From positions 186,001 through 250,000 of the forward strand of contig NZ_LT906446.1 of the NCBI RefSeq assembly GCF_900187035.1: a stretch of 64,000 bases of DNA. The letters are read 5' to 3'. The number at the start of each line of letters is the position of its first letter. Within the stretch, counting starts at the first letter, position 1. A program made the translations under genes and the position numbers. Under the pieces are notes generated by a model. It was not told the origin of the DNA and ran no database searches. It worked only from the letters and a program-made list of their open reading frames with translations. Shown piece after piece: positions 47,843 to 64,000 of the stretch. The stretch is from Megamonas hypermegale (GTDB lineage Bacteria > Bacillota > Negativicutes > Selenomonadales > Selenomonadaceae).

Positions 47843-49405
<1,563 letters not shown>

Positions 49406-49486
49406 AGCATGCGTTACCGGAAGGTAAGGTATGAGTCGAGCACATTCGTAAGCATTGTTTGGTTTTGAGAGAATATCTCTCTATAT

Positions 49487-49562
49487 GGGGGTGTAGCTCA
49501 GTTGGGAGAGCACCTGCCTTGCAAGCAGGGGGTCAGGAGTTCGAATCTCCTCATCTCCACCA
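49487..49562 (+). tRNA. tRNA-Ala (TGC)
   Basis: This 76-base cloverleaf has acceptor GGGGGTG/CATCTCC, anticodon loop CTTGCAA with TGC at 49520-49522, TTCGAAT T-loop and an encoded CCA. It lies 87 bases after 16S, the usual spacer tRNA position. Confidence 0.97.
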
Positions 49563-49592
49563 TATTGAATATATGCCTAAGGGCTTAAGATA

Positions 49593-49620
49593 AAAGACAG
49601 GTTTTACCTGTCTTTTTTAT
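49593..49620 (+). terminator. Terminator ending the 16S-tRNA-Ala unit
   Basis: AGACAGGTTTTACCTGTCT followed by six T. It stops transcription before any 23S gene, confirming that the 16S unit is separate. Confidence 0.85.
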
Positions 49621-49750
49621 TTTGTAAAATAAATTGTTTTTTTATGTATTTTATATTGCCTTTTAGATAATTTTTTTATAATATATCATATGTCAGCAAA
49701 TATTGCTGGTTTGATTTGCTTGTTAAGTTTAAAATGAAAGGAGATTTTTA

Positions 49751-49816
49751 ATGAATAATTTGATGATAACTGTAGCTTCTGTATGTTTAGTAGCTATAAC
49801 TTTAGTTAATTTATAA
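49751..49816 (+). CDS. 21-residue hydrophobic peptide upstream of modA
   Basis: The reading frame begins with ATG 6-8 bases after AAAGGAGA, a strong ribosome binding site, and encodes MNNLMITVASVCLVAITLVN plus Leu. It would be a single membrane-spanning micropeptide. It ends 35 bases before modA, which has its own weaker site (ACAGAGG). It may be a leader peptide or a small membrane subunit. There is no homology I can name; support is the ribosome site and hydrophobic pattern only. Confidence 0.45.
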   Translation: MNNLMITVASVCLVAITLVNL

Positions 49817-49851
49817 TTTTAGTTGTATTCAGTATTGACAGAGGTTTTTAT

Positions 49852-50658
49852 ATGTATCAATTGAAGAAAAATTTTGTAGCACTAATTCTATTATTATTAT
49901 TTAGTTTTATTATTTCTGGTTGTGATACTGTACAAACTGAAAAAAAAGCAGAAGAAGATACTTCCGTAAAAGAGGTATATATCGTAGCGGCAGCTAGTAT
50001 GACAGATGCTGTCAAAGAAATTGGTGCTAATTATGAAAAACAGCACCCAAATGTAAAATTGATGTATAACTTTGGTAGTTCAGGTGCATTGCAAGCTCAA
50101 ATAGAACAAGGTGCTCCGTCTGATGTATTTATTTCAGCAGCGCAAAAGCAAATGGATGCATTAGAACAAGAAAACTTGATTGATAAATCTACTAGAAGAG
50201 ATTTATTAGAAAATAAAGTGGTTCTTATTGTGCCAAAAGATAGTACATTAACATTGAATGATTTTTCTGATATAGCAAGTGATAAAGTACAAAAAATTGC
50301 TTTAGGTGAAATGAAATCAGTGCCAGTGGGACAGTATTCTGAAGAAATTTTTACAAAATTGAATATATTGGATGAAATAAAGCCTAAAGCTGTATATGCT
50401 TCTGATGTACGACAAGTTTTGGGCTGGGTGGAAACTGGTGAAGTTGATTGTGGTGTAGTTTATGCTACAGATGCAGCGATTTCTGATAAAGTAAAAATTT
50501 TACTTACGGCTCCAGAAGATACACATAAACCAGTAATTTATCCAGTGGCTATGGTAACATCTTCTAAAAATCCAGAAATAGCAAAAGATTTTTTGACTTT
50601 TTTAGGTGAAAATGAGCAAAAAGCTGTTTTGGAAAAATATGGTTTTGAAGTAAAATAA
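49852..50658 (+). CDS. modA: Molybdate ABC transporter substrate-binding lipoprotein ModA
   Basis: This 268-residue protein has a lipoprotein signal with lipobox ISGC (Cys at about residue 24) followed by a type II binding fold. Oxyanion-binding marks are AAASMTDAVKEIG, FGSSGALQAQIEQGAPSDVF, GEMKSVPVGQYSEE and CGVVYATDA. It binds molybdate or tungstate outside the inner membrane. A hairpin (GTGGCAG/CTGCCAC, about 50669-50702) between modA and modB may reduce downstream expression. Confidence 0.93.
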   Translation: MYQLKKNFVALILLLLFSFIISGCDTVQTEKKAEEDTSVKEVYIVAAASMTDAVKEIGANYEKQHPNVKLMYNFGSSGALQAQIEQGAPSDVFISAAQKQMDALEQENLIDKSTRRDLLENKVVLIVPKDSTLTLNDFSDIASDKVQKIALGEMKSVPVGQYSEEIFTKLNILDEIKPKAVYASDVRQVLGWVETGEVDCGVVYATDAAISDKVKILLTAPEDTHKPVIYPVAMVTSSKNPEIAKDFLTFLGENEQKAVLEKYGFEVK

Positions 50659-50720
50659 TCTATAATATGGTGGCAGTCTAATTAACAAAGTCTGCCACTA
50701 TTTTTATTTGAGGTGATGGA

Positions 50721-51380
50721 ATGGATTTATCGCCACTTATTATATCGATAAAAACGGCAAGTTTAGCAACTGTTATAACTTTTGTATTGGGTATTTACGC
50801 AGCAAGATATATAAAAAGAGTAAAAAAATATCAAGGCATTATTGATGGAATTATCACTTTACCGCTGGTTTTGCCGCCTACTGTGGTAGGTTTCTTTTTA
50901 TTGTTACTTTTAGGAAAAAATAGTTTTATCGGGCAATTTCTTAATATATTTGATATAAATATAATTTTTTCTTGGCCAGCGACTGTCATAACTGCAACAG
51001 TTGTATCATTTCCGCTTATGTACAGAACAACACGAGCTGCCTTTGAGCAAGTTGATAGGGACTTAATAGCAGCTGCGCGTACGTTGGGCGCTAGTGAAGA
51101 ACGAATTTTTTGGAAAATAATTTTACCATTGACAAAACCTAGTATTATTGCAGGGACAATTTTATCTTTTGCTAGAGCGCTTGGCGAATTTGGTGCGACT
51201 ATCATGTTAGCTGGAAATATTCCAGGTAAAACGCAAACGATGGCAACAGCTATTTATTCTGCTGTGCAGGCAAATGACCAAGAAAGTGCATTTATTTGGG
51301 CATTTATAATAATAATTTTTTCGTTAATTGTTATGGTAGTTATGAACTATTGGCTTAAAAAGCAAAAGGATATAGCTTGA
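50721..51380 (+). CDS. modB: Molybdate ABC transporter permease ModB
   Basis: This 219-residue protein has five membrane helices and a permease loop RTLGASEERIFWKIILPLTKPS (the EAA-type motif), then ALGEFGATIMLAGNIPGKTQT, typical of ModB. The start follows GAGGTGATGG. It lies 13 bases upstream of the modC start codon. Confidence 0.95.
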   Translation: MDLSPLIISIKTASLATVITFVLGIYAARYIKRVKKYQGIIDGIITLPLVLPPTVVGFFLLLLLGKNSFIGQFLNIFDINIIFSWPATVITATVVSFPLMYRTTRAAFEQVDRDLIAAARTLGASEERIFWKIILPLTKPSIIAGTILSFARALGEFGATIMLAGNIPGKTQTMATAIYSAVQANDQESAFIWAFIIIIFSLIVMVVMNYWLKKQKDIA

Positions 51381-51393
51381 TAGGAGCGATTAT

Positions 51394-54273
51394 ATGGCTT
51401 TAGAAGTGAATATAAAAAAGCAATTTGATTATTGTGAGCCGCACACTTGTGATTCTAATCATGAGTTAGGCGAACAAAATAGTCAGCGTATATAGAAATA
51501 TGTACGTAGAGATAGACTAAGATCTATCCAATACTGTTTGAATTGCTGGAAAGCCCTAAAGATATCTGAACTACAACGTAAACATGAAATAAAGTTAAAC
51601 GTGAATGTGGCGAAAGCAGAAAAAATCAGATATATAGCATAAGGTTAAATCCTAAGTGTTGAAAAATGGACAATCAGCAGCGAAGCTCCGAATAGGAGAA
51701 CGTTCAACGACTATTCCTCTTGAGGGAAGTACTCAGTAAGCTATTGACTGAGGAAGTGGACAGACTCTAACAGGTAAAGCTGAGGGATAAGATATAGTCT
51801 GTGCCGTTACGAAAGTAACGGAAGTTCATAAGAGAACTGTATAGAAAGTAGCGTTTCTATATGAACGAGACCTCATAATACGACTAAAGAAGAACCTACA
51901 GTTCTTGTATATGTTATTTAAAATAGGCAGTTAATATATAAACACTTGTTATATTGCTATACATATGTCATGATTATATTAGATGATAGTATGAAAGTGA
52001 TATATTTATTCATTAATTAGAAGAAAGCGTAAGTGTTTATTATGGAAAAAGCTTATAAATTTAGGATATACCCCAATAAAACACAAGAAAGTTTACTTCA
52101 AAAAACTTTTGGCTGTGTACGTTTTATATATAATCACTTTTTAGATAGAAGAATTAAAGCATATGAACAAAATAAGAAAAATATAGGTTATAATGAATGC
52201 TCAAAAGAGCTTACTCAATTAAAAAAAGAAAAAAAGTGGCTTAAAGAACCAGATAAATCCTCCTTACAAAATGCTTTAAAGAATTTAGATACAGCTTATA
52301 AAAACTTTTTTAATAGACAAAAAGCAGGCTTTCCTAAATTCAAATCTAAAAAGAATCGGTATAAATCGTACAAAACAAATATGACAAATAACAACATTGT
52401 ATTTTTAGGAAATAAAATAAAATTACCTAAAATAGGTAAGATAAAAATAAGAGATAAATATTGCCAAATAGAAGGTAGGATTTTAAGTGCGACAGTATCA
52501 CAGACTCCTAGTGGGAAATATTACGTTGCACTATGTTGTACAGACCTGCCTCAACCTGAATTCATAAAAACGAATAAATATGTCGGTTTGGATTTAGGAA
52601 TAAAGGATTTTGTCATAACCTCAGATGCAATAAAATATAGCAATCCTAAATACTTGCAGAAATCATTGACTAGATTAGCTAAACTCCAAAGAGAGCTTTC
52701 TCGAAAAACAAAAGGAAGTTCAAATTGGGAAAAGGTTAGAGTAAAAGTAGCTAAATTGCATGATAGAATTGCCAATCAAAGACGCAATTTACTACATCAA
52801 GTAACATGTCAACTTATCAGAAACTACGATGTAATCTGTCTTGAAGATTTGCAGGTTAAAAACATGATGAAAAATCATAAATTAGCAAGAAATATAGCTG
52901 ATGTCAGTTGGTCAGAGTTTATGAGACAACTAACATATAAAGCCAAATGGTTTGGCAGGGTTATTGTCAAAATAAATAAATTTTATCCTTCAAGCCAATT
53001 ATGTCATATTTGTGGGTATAAAAATATTGAAGTAAAAGATTTAAATGTTAGAGAGTGGAACTGTCCTGAATGTAAAACACATCACGATAGAGATGTAAAT
53101 GCAGCTATAAATATTAGAGATGAAGGATTAAGAATATTAAACATAGCTTAATCTTGAATAACATATACAAGAACCGTAGGAACTATGGGGATAGCTCGGA
53201 GATACTGTATTCGTTAGAATACTTGACCGAGAACCCTGCGACTTTAGTCGTAGGAGGTTCAGAATTTTGTTTTAGATGTAAATTTTGTATTAAAAAAGGG
53301 AATATTAGGTGTATTGGGAGCTTCTGGTTGTGGTAAATCAATGACGCTTAAATGTATTGCAGGTATTGAAACACCAGATACAGGAAGAATTGTTTTAAAT
53401 GGTAGAATTTTATTTGATAGTAAATTAGGCATAAATTTGCCACCGCAACAGCGAAATGTAGGTTATTTATTTCAAAATTATGCATTGTTTCCGCATATGA
53501 CGGTAGAAGATAATATCGCTTTTGGCATAAAAGAGAAAGATAAAAAAGCGATAATTGATAAGTATGTAGATATCTTTCATTTAAATGAAGTGCGCAAATT
53601 ATATCCTAGAAATTTATCTGGTGGACAACAACAGCGCGTGGCATTAGCTAGGATTTTTGCTTCTAAGCCAGATATTTTAATGCTCGATGAACCATTTTCA
53701 GCGCTTGATGATTTTTTAAAATGGCAAGTGGAAATAGAGCTCAGAAATATTTTAAATTTATATGTAGATGATATTTTATTTGTTTCTCATAATCGTGATG
53801 AAATATACCGTTTTTGTGATGAAGTAGCAGTGCTTTCAGCGGGAAAAATAACGGCATTTACTACGAAAAAAGCATTGTTTGAAAAACCGCAAACGCTAGA
53901 AGCTTCTAAACTTAGTGGCTGTAAAAATCATTCTCGCATAGAAAAAATTGATGATTATATTGTTAAAGCTATTGATTGGAATTTGATTTTAAAATTAGAT
54001 ACGAAAGTCATGGCAAACGATGCATATATTGGTATTAGAGCTCATGAAATCAATATTCATGTAAATAAGATAGATAAACAAAATATTTTTGCTTTTACAA
54101 TTGAGCATATTATAGAAAATATCTTCAGTATAATATTCATGGTTAGAGCTACTGATGCTAAAAATATGATTAGAGTGGAATTTGATAAAGAGTATTGGCA
54201 TGATGATAAAAAAGTTGGCGATGAGATTTATTTAGAATTGGATGCAAAACATTTATTTTTACTAAGAGATTAA
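51394..54273 (+). CDS. modC: Molybdate ABC transporter ATPase ModC, split by an IStron (join 51394..51429, 53263..54273)
   Basis: Exon 1 encodes 12 residues ([12 protein letters not shown]). Exon 2 begins at AATTTTG with [13 protein letters not shown] and runs to the stop. Joined, they give 348 residues in one frame, and [13 protein letters not shown] keeps the spacing of the ModC N-terminus as I know it from relatives. Exon 2 holds Walker A GASGCGKS, signature LSGGQQQR, Walker [14 protein letters not shown] and a C-terminal TOBE-like molybdate-binding domain. Without splicing, translation would stop after 33 codons at TAG 51493-51495. A TTG at 53314 could start a truncated protein but would lack strand 1 up to Walker A. 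Function therefore depends on RNA splicing or DNA excision. Confidence 0.9.
51425..51429 (+). other. IStron target site TTGAT
   Basis: The pentamer TTGAT directly precedes the left end of the element and is the last part of modC exon 1. IS605-family elements insert 3' of a short fixed target without duplication. TTGAT is, as I recall, the target of the clostridial IStron CdISt1. In the intact gene the same pentamer would serve as the TnpB target-adjacent motif next to the guide-matching sequence. Confidence 0.75.
51430..51821 (+). ncRNA. Group I self-splicing intron catalytic core
   Basis: All four classical core motifs occur in order: P as AATTGCTGGAAA (51541-51552), Q as AATCAGCAGCGAAG (51672-51685), R as GTTCAACGACTA (51702-51713) and S as AAGATATAGTCT (51789-51800). 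P7 forms from GACTA (51709-51713) with TAGTC (51795-51799). A P9 hairpin CCGTTAC-GAAA-GTAACGG lies at 51804-51821. GTCAG (51482-51486) is a candidate internal guide pairing with exon end TTGAT, giving a U-G wobble at the 5' splice site. CAAAAT (51475-51480) could pair with exon 2 ATTTTG as P10. The intron would end at G53262. Confidence 0.9.
51895..51918 (+). repeat. Left arm of long inverted repeat bracketing tnpB
   Basis: These 24 bases, beginning CCTACAGTTCTTG, are the reverse complement of 53157-53180 with a single mismatch. Pairing in RNA would put the whole tnpB region (about 1.24 kb) in a loop and bring the catalytic core near the 3' splice site. Confidence 0.85.
52042..53151 (+). CDS. 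tnpB: TnpB RNA-guided nuclease of the IStron
   Basis: This protein has 369 residues from the ATG at 52042; an in-frame GTG nine bases upstream is an alternative. It has the N-terminal OrfB helix-turn-helix region ([25 protein letters not shown]) and a central beta domain. The split RuvC nuclease has Asp184 in GLDLGIKDF, Glu268 in [10 protein letters not shown] and the DRD motif at 349-351 (HHDRDVNAA). A zinc-finger pair CHICG and CPECK interrupts it. All catalytic and zinc residues are present, so the nuclease looks active. TnpB proteins cleave DNA matching the omegaRNA guide next to a TAM and help keep the transposon at its site. Confidence 0.93.
53152..53262 (+). ncRNA. Probable omegaRNA scaffold / IStron right end
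   Basis: After the tnpB stop there are three ordered stems: CTCGG/CCGAG (53195-53199 with 53227-53231) enclosing GTATTC-GTTA-GAATAC (53207-53222), and the right-end hairpin CCTGCGAC/GTCGTAGG (53235-53254), followed by AGGTTCAG. In TnpB systems the guide is the sequence directly after the element, here modC from 53263 (AATTTTGTTTTAGATG). The 5' limit is unknown and probably lies inside tnpB. Confidence 0.7.
53157..53180 (+). repeat. Right arm of long inverted repeat bracketing tnpB
   Basis: This arm pairs with 51895-51918 (23 of 24 positions). It starts six bases after the tnpB stop codon and lies at the 5' edge of the omegaRNA-like region, so pairing with the left arm and folding of an omegaRNA may exclude each other. 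Confidence 0.85.
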
Positions 54274-54276
54274 AAA

Positions 54277-54313
54277 AAGCTACTTCTTATTTCTAAGAAG
54301 TAGCCTTTGTTTT
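54277..54313. terminator. Bidirectional terminator after modC
   Basis: GCTACTTCTTA pairs perfectly with TAAGAAGTAGC (54279-54304), with A-rich and T-rich flanks. It serves modC and the converging kinase-like gene. Confidence 0.85.
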
Positions 54314-55746
54314 TATTTGTTTATAGTGAATTTAAAGCCTGTGTATTCATCAGCTTGCTGTTCATACGTCAATTTAATATTGTGCAATTTAGCTAAATGT
54401 TGAGCAATAGATAATTCGATGCTAGAAAAAAGACTGTCATCTGGTTTAGTAGCGTAAAATTGTGGGAATACATCAGGTAATTGCGTCAGTGATACTTCAG
54501 AATTACTATTTTGGAAGAAAATATAATAATGCTGTGCATCTTCTGTTACTTTAATATGCAAAGTACTGTTTGAAGGATAAAGTTGAATGGCTTTATCGAG
54601 CGTTTCGCAAAACATTTGTTTTAAACGATTAGCGTCCCCTGTGAATAAAATGAGATTGTTAACTAAATCAAAATGCGTTTTAAATGAAATCTGTTTATCA
54701 TCAGCTACTTTTTGACGTGCCTTTATACTATCTTGTAAAACATCAAGTATATTCAATAAATCCTTTCGCATAGAAAAATCTACATCTGTTATTTGCGTTA
54801 AATTAAGTAAATTATTAGTGAGATGTTGCATTTTTTCTATTTCTTTAGTCATTTTGTTGACTGTAGCTTTAGTTAAAGCATTTTTATTATTAGCTGTTAA
54901 TTCGTTGAGACTTGCTTTTATCTCTTTTATTGGTGAATGCAACTTATATGCCGTTTTGACGATTATATCTGAGCAAGATTTTTCTTTAAATTGAGTTGTA
55001 TTTTCCATATTCTTTAAATAGAAAGAGAGTTTATTTAGGTTTTGTGCTAAAAGTGCTATTTCATCTGTTGATTTAGTTTTTATTTGTGTGTCGTAATTAT
55101 GATTCATCATCTTTTGCATGAATTTGTTGAGTACATTTAAAGATAAGATGTATTTGCGAACTAAATAGCGCAGTAAGAATAATGATATAAAGAATAAAAT
55201 GACAGTGCAAAATAATAAAATGGCAATGCCATCATACCAGCTGTGTTGAATCGATGGTAACTCATCGTGTAAAAGTAATGCAGCTTTTACTTCACCAGCT
55301 TTATTATAAACGGGAACACCTATAGTGATATAATTTGGATTGGTGAAAGCGGCAAAATCTTTAGAGCGAATATTTTGTCCTGTGAAAATCGTTTGAATGT
55401 CATTTTGACATTGCGGTGAAATCTGATTGTAATTTAGATTAGGATAGGAACGACTTCCAACCATCTGTAAGGTATTTTTGTCAACAAGCCATATTTCATT
55501 TTGGTTTAAAACGTTTAATAGTTGTAAAACATTATTATTGTAAATAAGTGTGATTGGAACATTATCAGCGGTTGTTTTACTTAAAACGTCAGCAAATGAT
55601 AAAGCTGTTGTTTCTAAGCGACTATTTTCTACATCATTAGCATGTTTTAAGAAAATAAAACCAAAACAGATACTAAAGATGATGACAAAGAATAAGAGTA
55701 TAGAAGTTAAAATAAGCATTAATTTATTGATAAGTTTAAATGGCAT
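54313..55746 (-). CDS. Degenerate orphan sensor histidine kinase
   Basis: This 477-residue protein has a membrane helix (about 10-33), an extracytoplasmic sensor domain (35-165), a second helix (172-195), a HAMP-like segment and a dimerisation region with His270 in YKLHSPIKE. The ATP-binding domain is recognisable but eroded. The N-box reads ETLDKAI (Lys for the key Asn), the G1 box is QNSNS instead of DxGxG, and the G2 box lacks its glycines (LFSSIELSIAQ). The F-box VFPQFY remains. ATP binding looks lost, so it may be a pseudokinase. No response regulator is adjacent. It converges on modC, but no functional link is shown. Confidence 0.8.
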   Translation of the reverse strand: MPFKLINKLMLILTSILLFFVIIFSICFGFIFLKHANDVENSRLETTALSFADVLSKTTADNVPITLIYNNNVLQLLNVLNQNEIWLVDKNTLQMVGSRSYPNLNYNQISPQCQNDIQTIFTGQNIRSKDFAAFTNPNYITIGVPVYNKAGEVKAALLLHDELPSIQHSWYDGIAILLFCTVILFFISLFLLRYLVRKYILSLNVLNKFMQKMMNHNYDTQIKTKSTDEIALLAQNLNKLSFYLKNMENTTQFKEKSCSDIIVKTAYKLHSPIKEIKASLNELTANNKNALTKATVNKMTKEIEKMQHLTNNLLNLTQITDVDFSMRKDLLNILDVLQDSIKARQKVADDKQISFKTHFDLVNNLILFTGDANRLKQMFCETLDKAIQLYPSNSTLHIKVTEDAQHYYIFFQNSNSEVSLTQLPDVFPQFYATKPDDSLFSSIELSIAQHLAKLHNIKLTYEQQADEYTGFKFTINK

Positions 55747-55867
55747 GATAAAGTACCTCGATAAATTTCATTAGTATATATAGAATTTTATCACAAAAAT
55801 AAAGAAGAAAAAATATCTTGAATGATATATACTATTATTAGAAAGAATATTGAAAGGAGATGATAAT

Positions 55868-56029
55868 ATGCGTAAATTAGTAACGTTATTAATGACGGCA
55901 TTTATGCTGGCAAGCTTCTCCGCTGGTGTTTTTGCACAAGAAAAAACAAATTATGACTTTAACAGAGTTGGTGATGGATATCATTGCGATTATGATAATG
56001 GACATCATCATGATGACCGTTGCTGGTGA
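55868..56029 (+). CDS. Small secreted His/Asp-rich peptide
   Basis: This 53-residue protein has a clear signal peptide (MRKLVTLLMTAFMLASFSAG, cleavage likely at VFA-QE). The mature part is about 30 residues and ends HCDYDNGHHHDDRCW. Two Cys could form a disulphide, and the His/Asp cluster could bind a metal. The ribosome binding site GAAAGGAGATG is strong and a terminator follows, so it is a free-standing gene. It is divergent from the degenerate kinase and just upstream of the 23S promoter. I recognise no family. Confidence 0.7.
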   Translation: MRKLVTLLMTAFMLASFSAGVFAQEKTNYDFNRVGDGYHCDYDNGHHHDDRCW

Positions 56030-56039
56030 CTGAAATAAC

Positions 56040-56073
56040 AAGGGTATGAGGCCTTTCTCATGCCCTTTTAAAT
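56040..56073 (+). terminator. Terminator after the small secreted peptide
   Basis: GGGTATGAG pairs with CTCATGCCC (one G-T pair) across GCCTTT, followed by a T-rich run. Confidence 0.75.
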
Positions 56074-56112
56074 ATTTTTTTTAGAAAATGTAAATTTTTT
56101 TAAAAAAAAGTG

Positions 56113-56141
56113 TTGACATGATGGCAATAATTTAATATACT
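56113..56141 (+). promoter_or_regulatory. Second rRNA promoter, ahead of tRNA-Ile and 23S
   Basis: TTGACA (56113-56118) and TATACT (56136-56141) are 17 bases apart, with AAAAAAAAGTG upstream and ATAGAAGCTGGCTC downstream, nearly the same as the 16S promoter at 47643. The 23S leader also has GTTCTTTGAAAACT (about 56287-56300), the same boxA-like motif. Confidence 0.85.
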
Positions 56142-56204
56142 ATAGAAGCTGGCTCGTGAGCCAACAGAAAAGAGAAAGCCTTAAGGGCTTGAACATAAGA
56201 ATAT

Positions 56205-56281
<77 letters not shown>

Positions 56282-56438
56282 TAATTGTTCTTTGAAAACT
56301 GCACAGAAGAATATAAATGCAAAAAACTAATTCACCGAAAAGAAAAGCAAATGCTTCTCTTAGAGTTTAGTGGATTGAACCAAGCATTTTAGGATTTAAA
56401 AAAACATTAGCGAAGACAAAAGCAAATGACCTTAAGTA

Positions 56439-59349
<2,911 letters not shown>

Positions 59350-59417
59350 AAAGCTTGGTAGAGCAAGAAATTCTTCTGTGAAGTTTTGAGGGAACAAAAG
59401 ACCTCAGAAAAAAGAAT

Positions 59418-59535
59418 ATCCGGTGATGATGCCTAAATGGAACCACCTGTATCCATACCGAACACAGTAGTTAAGCATTTAGAGGCCGAAAGTACTTGCA
59501 TGGAAACGTGCTGGGAGGATAGGAAGTTGCCGGTT
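59418..59535 (+). rRNA. rrf: 5S ribosomal RNA
   Basis: It runs from TATCCGGTGATGATGCC to GTTGCCGGTTA, with CCGAACACAGTAGTTAAGC in the central domain. The terminal stem CCGG pairs both ends. Length is about 118 bases. Confidence 0.93.
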
Positions 59536-59894: not shown

Positions 59895-59934
59895 TTAGCG
59901 ATATCAGAAAAAATCTGATATCGCTTTTTTGTTG
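59895..59934 (+). terminator. Terminator after tRNA-Ser
   Basis: AGCGATATCAG pairs with CTGATATCGCT across an A-rich loop, followed by six T. Confidence 0.85.
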
Positions 59935-60003
59935 TCGCCGAATAGGTATGATAAAACCCACAGTTTAACTGGGGGTTGTTAAGAATTCTTAAAGAAAAGG
60001 AAA

Positions 60004-60059
60004 GAACCTCCGTACTACAATATAAGTGGTCTGGCAACCATATAAAGTATAGGAGGTTC
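60004..60059 (+). promoter_or_regulatory. Hairpin hiding the tnpA ribosome binding site
   Basis: GAACCTCCGTACT (60004-60016) pairs with AGTAT-A-GGAGGTTC (60046-60059, one bulged A). The paired GGAGG is the ribosome binding site of tnpA, so translation should be strongly reduced. A similar structural block is known for enterobacterial IS200. Confidence 0.8.
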
Positions 60060-60065
60060 GTGTCA

Positions 60066-60530
60066 ATGAATGATATAAAAAGTTTATCACATAGTAAGTG
60101 GAGATGTAAATATCATATTGTTTTTGCACCAAAATACCGTAGACAAGTTATTTATAAAAAAATAAGAGTAGATATAGGAAAGATATTAAGACAGTTATGC
60201 AAAAGAAAAAAAGTAGAAATAATAGAAGCAGAATGTTGCCCAAATCATATCCATATGTTAGTGGCAATACCACCGCATTTGAGTGTAGCAGGATTTATGG
60301 GGTATTTGAAAAGTAAGAGTAGTTTGATGATATTTGATAGACATGCAAATTTAAAATATAAGTATGGAAATAGACATTTTTGGTGCAGAGGATATTATGT
60401 AGATACAGTAGGAAAATATGAAAATGCGATAAAAGAATATATAAAAAACCAATTAGAAGAAGACATAATGATAGATCAAATAAGTTTAAAAGAATATATA
60501 GACCCGTTTACAGGTAGCAAGGGACAATAA
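60066..60530 (+). CDS. tnpA: IS200-family Y1 transposase TnpA
   Basis: This protein has 154 residues from the ATG after AGGAGGTTCGTGTCA; the frame stays open further upstream, but only this start has a ribosome binding site. The HUH motif is H61-I-H63 in CCPNHIHMLV, and the probable catalytic Tyr125 is in KEYIKNQ after RGYYVDTVG. It cuts and joins single-stranded DNA at end hairpins. The full length and intact motifs suggest it is functional. Confidence 0.95.
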   Translation: MNDIKSLSHSKWRCKYHIVFAPKYRRQVIYKKIRVDIGKILRQLCKRKKVEIIEAECCPNHIHMLVAIPPHLSVAGFMGYLKSKSSLMIFDRHANLKYKYGNRHFWCRGYYVDTVGKYENAIKEYIKNQLEEDIMIDQISLKEYIDPFTGSKGQ

Positions 60531-60540
60531 GGCAAAAATA

Positions 60541-60645
60541 AAAGCCCCAAAGAGGGGCTTTGCCAGTGAAAAAAATGTGGTTGTCAGATTATTCAGCGCA
60601 TCTTTTAAGATGCAACCACAAGAGAAAAACCCTTATAGGGTTGAG
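60541..60645 (+). ncRNA. Structured 3' region of the IS200 element
   Basis: Two stems follow tnpA: AAAGCCCC/GGGGCTTT (60542-60562), and TGTGGTTG pairing with CAACCACA around an inner GCATCTTTTAAGATGC hairpin (about 60576-60621). The first may be the tnpA terminator. Whether the second is a functional RNA is not known. Confidence 0.4.
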
Positions 60646-60681
60646 CAAACCACCAGTTTAACTGGTGGTTTTGATTTAAAA

Positions 60682-63299: not shown

Positions 63300-63403
63300 A
63301 AAAACGCCTGAGCATATGATTTTATGCCCAGACGGTCGACTTTTTTGTAAATAGTACGGTTCACGTGGTTAATTCCACTTAAAATCCGTCAGTTCCGTAC
63401 CGT
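63300..63403 (-). promoter_or_regulatory. ZTP (pfl-type) riboswitch with terminator, upstream of fhs
   Basis: On the minus strand, right after the folD stop, ACGGTACGGAACTGACGG begins the aptamer. AAGTGGAATTAACCACGTG is the first hairpin, and CCGTCTGGGCA is the conserved 3' element of the pfl motif. The same CTGGGCA can instead pair with TATGCTCAGGC to form an 11-bp terminator stem followed by TTTTTT. Ligand ZTP or ZMP, signalling folate shortage, would favour the aptamer and let transcription continue into fhs. The family commonly controls fhs and purine genes. Confidence 0.85.
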
Positions 63404-64000
63404 TTATGAATTTATGTCTTTATTATAACAAAGTGCATATTGATTAGCAAGTTGCATTTTTAATGCTGTAACAGTATTTTGCATTAGCATAGCGATTGTC
63501 AAAAGACCTACGCCACCAGGTACAGGTGTGATAGCTCCAGCAACGTTTACGGCATTTTCAAAATCGACATCACCGACAAGTTTTTTTGGTGCAATGCGGT
63601 TAATGCCAACATCGATTACTGTAGCACCAGGTTTTATCATATCTGCTGTGATAAATTTTGGCTTACCAATAGCTGCAACTATAATATCTGCACTTTTACA
63701 TATTTCTTTTAAATTTTTTGTATGGGAATGGCAGATAGTAACTGTAGCATTTTTAGATAATAATAAATGTGCCATCGGTTTACCAACGATATTGCTGCGG
63801 CCGATTACAACGGCATGAGCGCCATCGATGTTTATATTGCTAGCTTCGAGCATTTTTAAGCAACCGTGTGGAGTACAAGGGATTAAAGCTTCTTGTCCAG
63901 TGACGAGCTTGCCTACATTGATAGGATGAAAACCATCTACATCTTTAAATGGATTTATTTCATTTAAAATTTCTTCTTCATGTTGCGCAATAGCTTTTGG
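63404..64000 (-). CDS. folD: Methylene-THF dehydrogenase/cyclohydrolase FolD (5' part outside the window)
   Basis: The frame is open to the window edge, giving the last 198 residues. FolD marks are [25 protein letters not shown], the dinucleotide-binding [18 protein letters not shown] and the C-terminal [19 protein letters not shown]. It interconverts methylene-, methenyl- and formyl-THF. The stop is directly followed by the ZTP riboswitch of fhs, so both one-carbon genes lie in tandem. Confidence 0.95.

Follow-up and report, generated by a model that had tools for sequence, protein, structure and literature searches.

The window, the whole stretch of 64,000 nucleotides of Megamonas hypermegale DNA analysed here, carries a molybdate transport operon on the forward strand. 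The modA gene (49852..50658), encoding the molybdate-binding protein, scored 215.7 bits against TIGR01256 (cut-off 62.5), and modB (50721..51380), encoding the molybdate permease, scored 253.2 bits against TIGR02141 (cut-off 182.6). The third gene, modC, is interrupted. Its 5′ exon of 12 codons (51394..51429, with the ATG at 51394), placed by gap-free alignment with 22 uninterrupted modC genes, is followed on the same strand by an IS200/IS605-type insertion of 1833 bp (51430..53262), the ends of which were fixed by comparison of 12 copies in the genome (G000, one contig of 2,230,342 bases). The 3′ exon (53263..54273) was delimited by the joined frame and by comparison with orthologs. The operon lies inside a split rRNA operon (47844–59535; also L208 3695–13731), in which 16S and tRNA-Ala are followed by modABC and later by tRNA-Ile, 23S, and 5S. 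A terminator-like hairpin (49592–49616) stands between tRNA-Ala and modABC, a histidine kinase gene occupies the other strand between modABC and tRNA-Ile, and the split order is common to a same-genus genome, G001. A ZMP/ZTP riboswitch was also found in the window, on the reverse strand (63319–63406; RF01750, 61.6 bits).

When the flanks were joined at 51429/53263, between codons 12 and 13 (GAT, then AAT), a single open frame of 348 codons was obtained, confirming the start, junction, gene end, and frame length claimed by a first-pass annotation, which had read the insertion as an IStron within modC. The joined ModC scored 210 bits against TIGR02142 (cut-off 285) and slightly more, 214.9 bits, against a phosphonate-transporter model, also under its own cut-off. 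Because both transporter models scored below cut-off, the protein was named from its operon context. A genome search at E 1e-60, in which 35 of 44 candidates were scored, detected one modC, and the genome also encodes a MoaA-type protein. In unspliced RNA, 21 intron codons are read before the first in-frame stop, a TAG at 51493..51495 (+); a ribosome would pass the P1 loop of the intron described below and then stop in P2. Translation of modC without splicing from an internal TTG at 53314 was rejected, as that frame begins at the Walker A motif.

Uninterrupted modC genes were found in 22 of the 59 other genomes searched (E 1e-60). Between the start and the Walker A motif, none of the 22 alignments contains an internal gap. 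The family-like spacing that had been claimed is thus confirmed, although the genes differ in their residues right at the junction. In G001, the gene order (16S, tRNA, modABC, histidine kinase, tRNA, 23S) matches that of the window, modC is uninterrupted, and the DNA aligns base for base across the junction. Because TTGAT, the pentamer that precedes the element, is absent there, G001 shows the spacing rather than the target before insertion.

A search with Rfam (shorter stretch, e-value mode) matched the group I intron model RF00028 at 51482–51821, over model positions 1–253 of 253 (73.2 bits, cut-off 50, E 3.5e-18). The whole-window Rfam run at the gathering threshold listed no group I match, which we take to be a loss to speed filters, since the 98% identical copy in G001 (L130) was likewise unlisted and was then found in a shorter stretch with 69.8 bits. 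A failed covariance search, or relatives whose modC contradicted the junction, had been named in advance as computable evidence against an IStron; the model was matched, and the uninterrupted genes agree with the spacing at the junction. The core motifs that we take to be P, Q, R, and S are present, as had been claimed together with P7 (GACTA/TAGTC, 51709–51713/51795–51799). P3 is formed by 51534–51539/51758–51763, all six pairs of P7.2 are formed in the window, and the ribozyme extends on the forward strand from P2 to P9.2 (51482..51861). Read from the sequence, an internal guide GTCAG (51482..51486, +) pairs with the UUGAU that closes the 5′ exon (TTGAT, 51425..51429, +), which is the 5′ strand of P1 and ends in the last exon base, U. 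AATA at 51478–51481 likewise pairs with UAUU at 51430–51433. By eye, the U-G pair at the 5′ splice site is flanked by P1 pairs, UUGAU and UAUU on its two sides facing AAUAGUCAG, and a P10 with the modC 3′ exon is possible; another copy is without it. By its RF00028 match and its helices P2–P9.2 with covariation, the intron falls into class IA2, the class of group A IStron introns, for which P7.1, P7.2, P9.1, P9.2, and also P9.0 are described in the text of a 2014 survey (PMC4227781).

The structure was evaluated on eight aligned introns, a set of few and related rows that includes three from G053 and two from G012. For 79 pairs in 14 helices with the P3–P7 pseudoknot, 97.5% of the cells were paired versus 32–44% for slid partners, a count that favors the structure because we derived it from the sequence of the window itself. 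Both sides had changed at 35 of the 79 pairs. For four of five covariation measures the observed value was reached by 0 of 500 shuffles, and for the fifth, further pair types, by 68 of 500. P4 and P7 were neutral in this test because neither ever varies, and the pair counts were made without P1, which MAFFT shifted, and P7.2, which varies in length. Target and guide also covary, with TTGAT/GTCAG in the modC copy and TTTAT/GTAAG in G012, whose left border was inferred. The single-strand fold was stable (z −4.9). Related introns scored 70.3 (G053), 58.4 (G046), and 69.8 bits (G001) against RF00028, and those of G012, cut by contig ends, scored 45.4 and 39.6 bits, under the cut-off of 50.

After P9.2 comes the motif GAACGA (51863..51868, +); in published IStrons, a GAACGA-like motif at this place is given as the start of the IS part (PMC4227781). 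A repeat search revealed an 18-bp perfect inverted repeat (51901..51918/53157–53174) that would loop out tnpB, longer than the 6–10 bp reported around the ORF in group A IStrons (PMC4227781). The tnpB gene that had been claimed inside the element is an open frame of 369 codons (52042..53151 with the stop, +), and its product belongs to the RNA-guided endonuclease family (NF038281, 545.9 bits, cut-off 425; Pfam domains OrfB_IS605 and Cas12f1-like_TNB). The right end (53152..53262, +), a hairpin-bearing IS end, closes with the intron 3′ end TTCAG and contains a putative omega-RNA scaffold for TnpB. The modC copy begins with TAT (UAU in RNA), whereas the copies in G053 begin with TAA, and most IStrons are reported to begin with UAA, UAG, or UGA, so that ribosomes are halted immediately when the insertion has the common phase (PMC4227781).

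Twelve left ends of the element, and as many right ends, were located in the genome. All 12 copies are preceded by TTGAT and end in TTCAG, so that the claimed borders, a start after TTGAT and an end in G, apply to the whole set. The 3′ flanks differ and no target duplication was seen; a variable 3′ flank and a TCAG terminus are likewise features of group A IStrons (PMC4227781). Nine copies measure 1833–1847 bp, two 1115 bp, and one 835 bp, and the left 611 bases are 97–100% alike among them. The 369-aa tnpB frame is whole in eight copies; one further copy has a stop at its codon 20, and three have lost tnpB by deletion, whereas the intron core has no indels in any of the 12. Among the 12 copies, segregating sites number 6 of 380 in the core versus 66 of 1107 in tnpB (Fisher, p 2.6e-4), and 38 of 369 tnpB third positions segregate among the nine full-length copies (p 1.9e-7). 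The copies are, however, not independent samples, and recombination is another process that could homogenise the core.

Ten of the 12 copies lie inside long frames, all in the sense direction, and all ten frames reopen when the element is removed exactly and the flanks are joined. The remaining two have no frame of more than 53 codons across the site and were taken as intergenic. Besides modC, the interrupted genes are cmk (TIGR00017, over cut-off), pyrF (NF001273, over cut-off), a gene for a CCA-adding-type enzyme (best NCBIfam model under cut-off), and genes for an aldo-keto reductase, an O-methyltransferase, a PilN-like protein, asparaginase II, a HAD hydrolase, and an unknown protein. A genome search detected one PolyA_pol protein, Cytidylate_kin matched nothing but the two fragments into which cmk is split, and a combined query of the cmk, pyrF, and CCA-enzyme proteins hit no locus other than the three interrupted ones. 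The cmk gene and CCA-adding enzymes are commonly essential. Nine of the ten in-frame insertions fall at a codon end, which is not notable because 72% of sense TTGAT sites share that phase.

The left part of the element was detected in 5 of 99 other genomes searched. TTGAT preceded all 30 left ends counted from match coordinates (5 in G001, 1 in G046, 22 in G053, and 2 in G005), a count that excludes the two G012 loci, where the left border was inferred and is apparently TTTAT, and locus L154 of G053, which is without the left end. The elements of the same-family genomes G053, G046, and G012 share the group I match, the preceding TTGAT (apparently TTTAT in G012), and the same helices, at 73–80% DNA identity to the window copy; contig ends cut 19 of the 22 left ends in G053 and both G012 copies. 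In G053 (L033, L035, and L134–L153), the frames upstream of the 22 left ends include some that resemble, by eye, UppS, RecN, and UvrA genes. No group I intron was found at E 0.001 in the TnpB-relative loci scanned with Rfam (11 of 34 genome-contig and 10 of 34 viral loci), a result of little weight given this coverage and filters that can miss introns.

Outside these genomes, an IStron-like element on the C. difficile plasmid CP103805.1 (36166–38030) is colinear over 99% of the query. It stands after TTGAT, ends in TTCAG, carries the guide GTCAG, and matches RF00028 with 65.0 bits, and it is 68.6% identical to the modC copy overall (core 79%, tnpB 65%). It begins with TAA, which for insertions of the common phase places a stop directly at the junction, whereas the modC copy begins with TAT. 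The record annotates tnpB alone within the element, which is probably of the CdISt1 type. A sub-threshold RAGATH-18 match (L211 1842–1896, 32.9 bits, cut-off 44.9) lies over the right end of this element, and a related element in the Clostridioides phage CP067352.1 (L212) is 71% identical over 89% of the query.

Among the papers available for searching, the 2014 survey was the only one returned for IStrons in Megamonas (PMC4227781). The first-pass annotation was not aware of an IStron in a Negativicutes mod operon; IStrons of Negativicutes had been published in that survey (group A in Megamonas and Megasphaera, group B in Selenomonas), and what stands of the novelty is that modC and molybdate are absent from its main text (PMC4227781). 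The survey reports 118 of 202 IStron insertion sites as intragenic and gives TTGAT, ATTAT, or TTTAT as the sequences 3′ of which group A IStrons insert (PMC4227781). MfISt1 of Megamonas funiformis is described there as a group A element of class IA2 with a truncated ORF A and an ORF B; its 1839 bp compare with 1833–1847 bp for the full-length copies here, a comparison by published description, and it is reported at one copy per strain versus 12 here (PMC4227781). The modC insertion is therefore a further member of a published kind and largely ordinary for its class. Most unusual here are the copy number, the host genes, the tnpB-deleted copies at separate loci, and the lack of a recognisable cognate transposase.

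The two 1115-bp copies are of equal length, show the same deletion in the alignment, and differ at ten bases, while their 1-kb flanks have no detectable similarity to each other. Because the shared deletion sits in unlike flanks, it seems that a form lacking tnpB has moved. None of the 12 copies contains a Y1 transposase, and a tblastn search with an unrelated 154-aa IS200-like TnpA as the only query detected no ORF A remnant in the element (best E 1.1). The window also contains a 753-bp IS200-like element (59926–60678) with a lone 154-aa TnpA, present in four genome copies that are 99.7–100% alike. The four solitary IS200-like Y1 transposases were rejected as trans-mobilisers, as their ends share matches of at most 8 bases with the IStron ends (blastn-short). 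Of 18 transposase loci of G001, G046, and G053 examined for similarity to the ends of the IStron, L191 of G053 alone matched (22 bases, 91%, E 0.011, to the right end); there, tnpA and then an apparent tnpB start lie beside the match (1359–2034), and this locus is possibly the cognate autonomous element. According to the survey, ORF B is truncated in a few copies of CdISt1, BcISt1 without any ORF is inherited at one place, and genomes that carry truncated copies had none in which ORF A is intact; its authors suggest that IStron mobility requires ORF B (PMC4227781). A spread of tnpB-deleted mini-IStrons here, with no recognisable cognate TnpA, would go against that suggestion.

The covariance match, the compensatory changes, the identical ends in all 12 copies, and the gap-free uninterrupted orthologs together support a group A IStron in modC, and very probably its self-splicing would restore a 348-residue ModC. 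IS machinery would have inserted the element after TTGAT, probably on single-stranded DNA at the replication fork. In the modABC transcript, the guide GUCAG would pair with the UUGAU closing the 5′ exon, the ribozyme would fold around P3–P7, and the inverted repeat would loop out the tnpB part. Two group I transesterifications would then ligate GAT, the twelfth codon, to AAT and so yield a normal ModC, while TnpB with an omega-RNA from the right end may guard the element copy. Splicing in vivo, its efficiency, and a dependence of molybdate uptake on it are inferences from the sequence.

The orientation of the copies bears on this reading. With a simple frame caller, 20 samples of 20 kb contained 902 sense, 578 antisense, and 271 intergenic TTGAT sites. 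By the GC skew of the 20 samples, with borders that we placed at about 0.75 and 1.99 Mb, eleven of the 12 copies are codirectional with the replication fork. This agrees with the cutting of the lagging strand by IS200/IS605 transposases (PMC3984707). The sense bias therefore comes partly from replication; 68.3% of codirectional genic TTGAT sites are sense, and against this value 10 of 10 sense gives p = 0.022. It is thus conceivable, if on the unlikely side, that insertion at the fork alone produced the pattern, which would then say nothing about splicing. Against this, 30 of 34 gene-associated insertions pooled over five genomes are sense (p = 0.007 versus 0.683), although the 24 from the other genomes alone give p = 0.08 (20 sense and 4 antisense among 30 left ends, with 6 undecided from the upstream flank only) and the expectation of 0.683 was measured in this genome only. 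The orientation evidence is supportive of splicing, not decisive.

A slightly likelier rival is that splicing is partial or conditional, the transcript becoming either spliced mRNA or an omega-RNA for TnpB, with modC lowered or regulated; we regard this as a real but lesser possibility. The 3′ splice site is also the border of scaffold and guide, an intact tnpB and right end abut it, the unspliced reading halts early as described above, and a 2024 study reportedly found a conflict between IStron splicing and guide RNA. The copies in probably essential genes nevertheless argue for enough splicing at least there. Simple inactivation of modC, with the open joined frame reflecting recency rather than splicing, is very improbable. 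The likeness of the copies in their left parts does mean that the insertions may be too recent for the decay of a dead, non-essential modC to be visible; yet all ten in-frame copies are sense and reopen their frames, three of them in housekeeping genes each found once, and the ribozyme is conserved while tnpB decays. Self-splicing of the IStron in modC therefore remains the preferred reading.

Extended to the genome, this reading would make the ten host frames, including cmk, pyrF, and the CCA gene, readable only after splicing, so that viability would depend on the parasite's ribozyme, while tnpB-deleted mini-IStrons spread with no recognisable cognate TnpA; on balance we lean slightly toward this picture. 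The locus would then be a clean natural case of a transposon tolerated through self-splicing, for which the other eleven copies serve as internal controls and G001 supplies a same-genus ortholog free of the element. Since some copies lie in probably essential genes each found once, RNA-seq of this species would gauge IStron splicing in vivo against TnpB guide RNA production, and the tnpB-deleted copies at more than one locus, with no recognisable cognate transposase, make the question of what mobilises IStrons testable.
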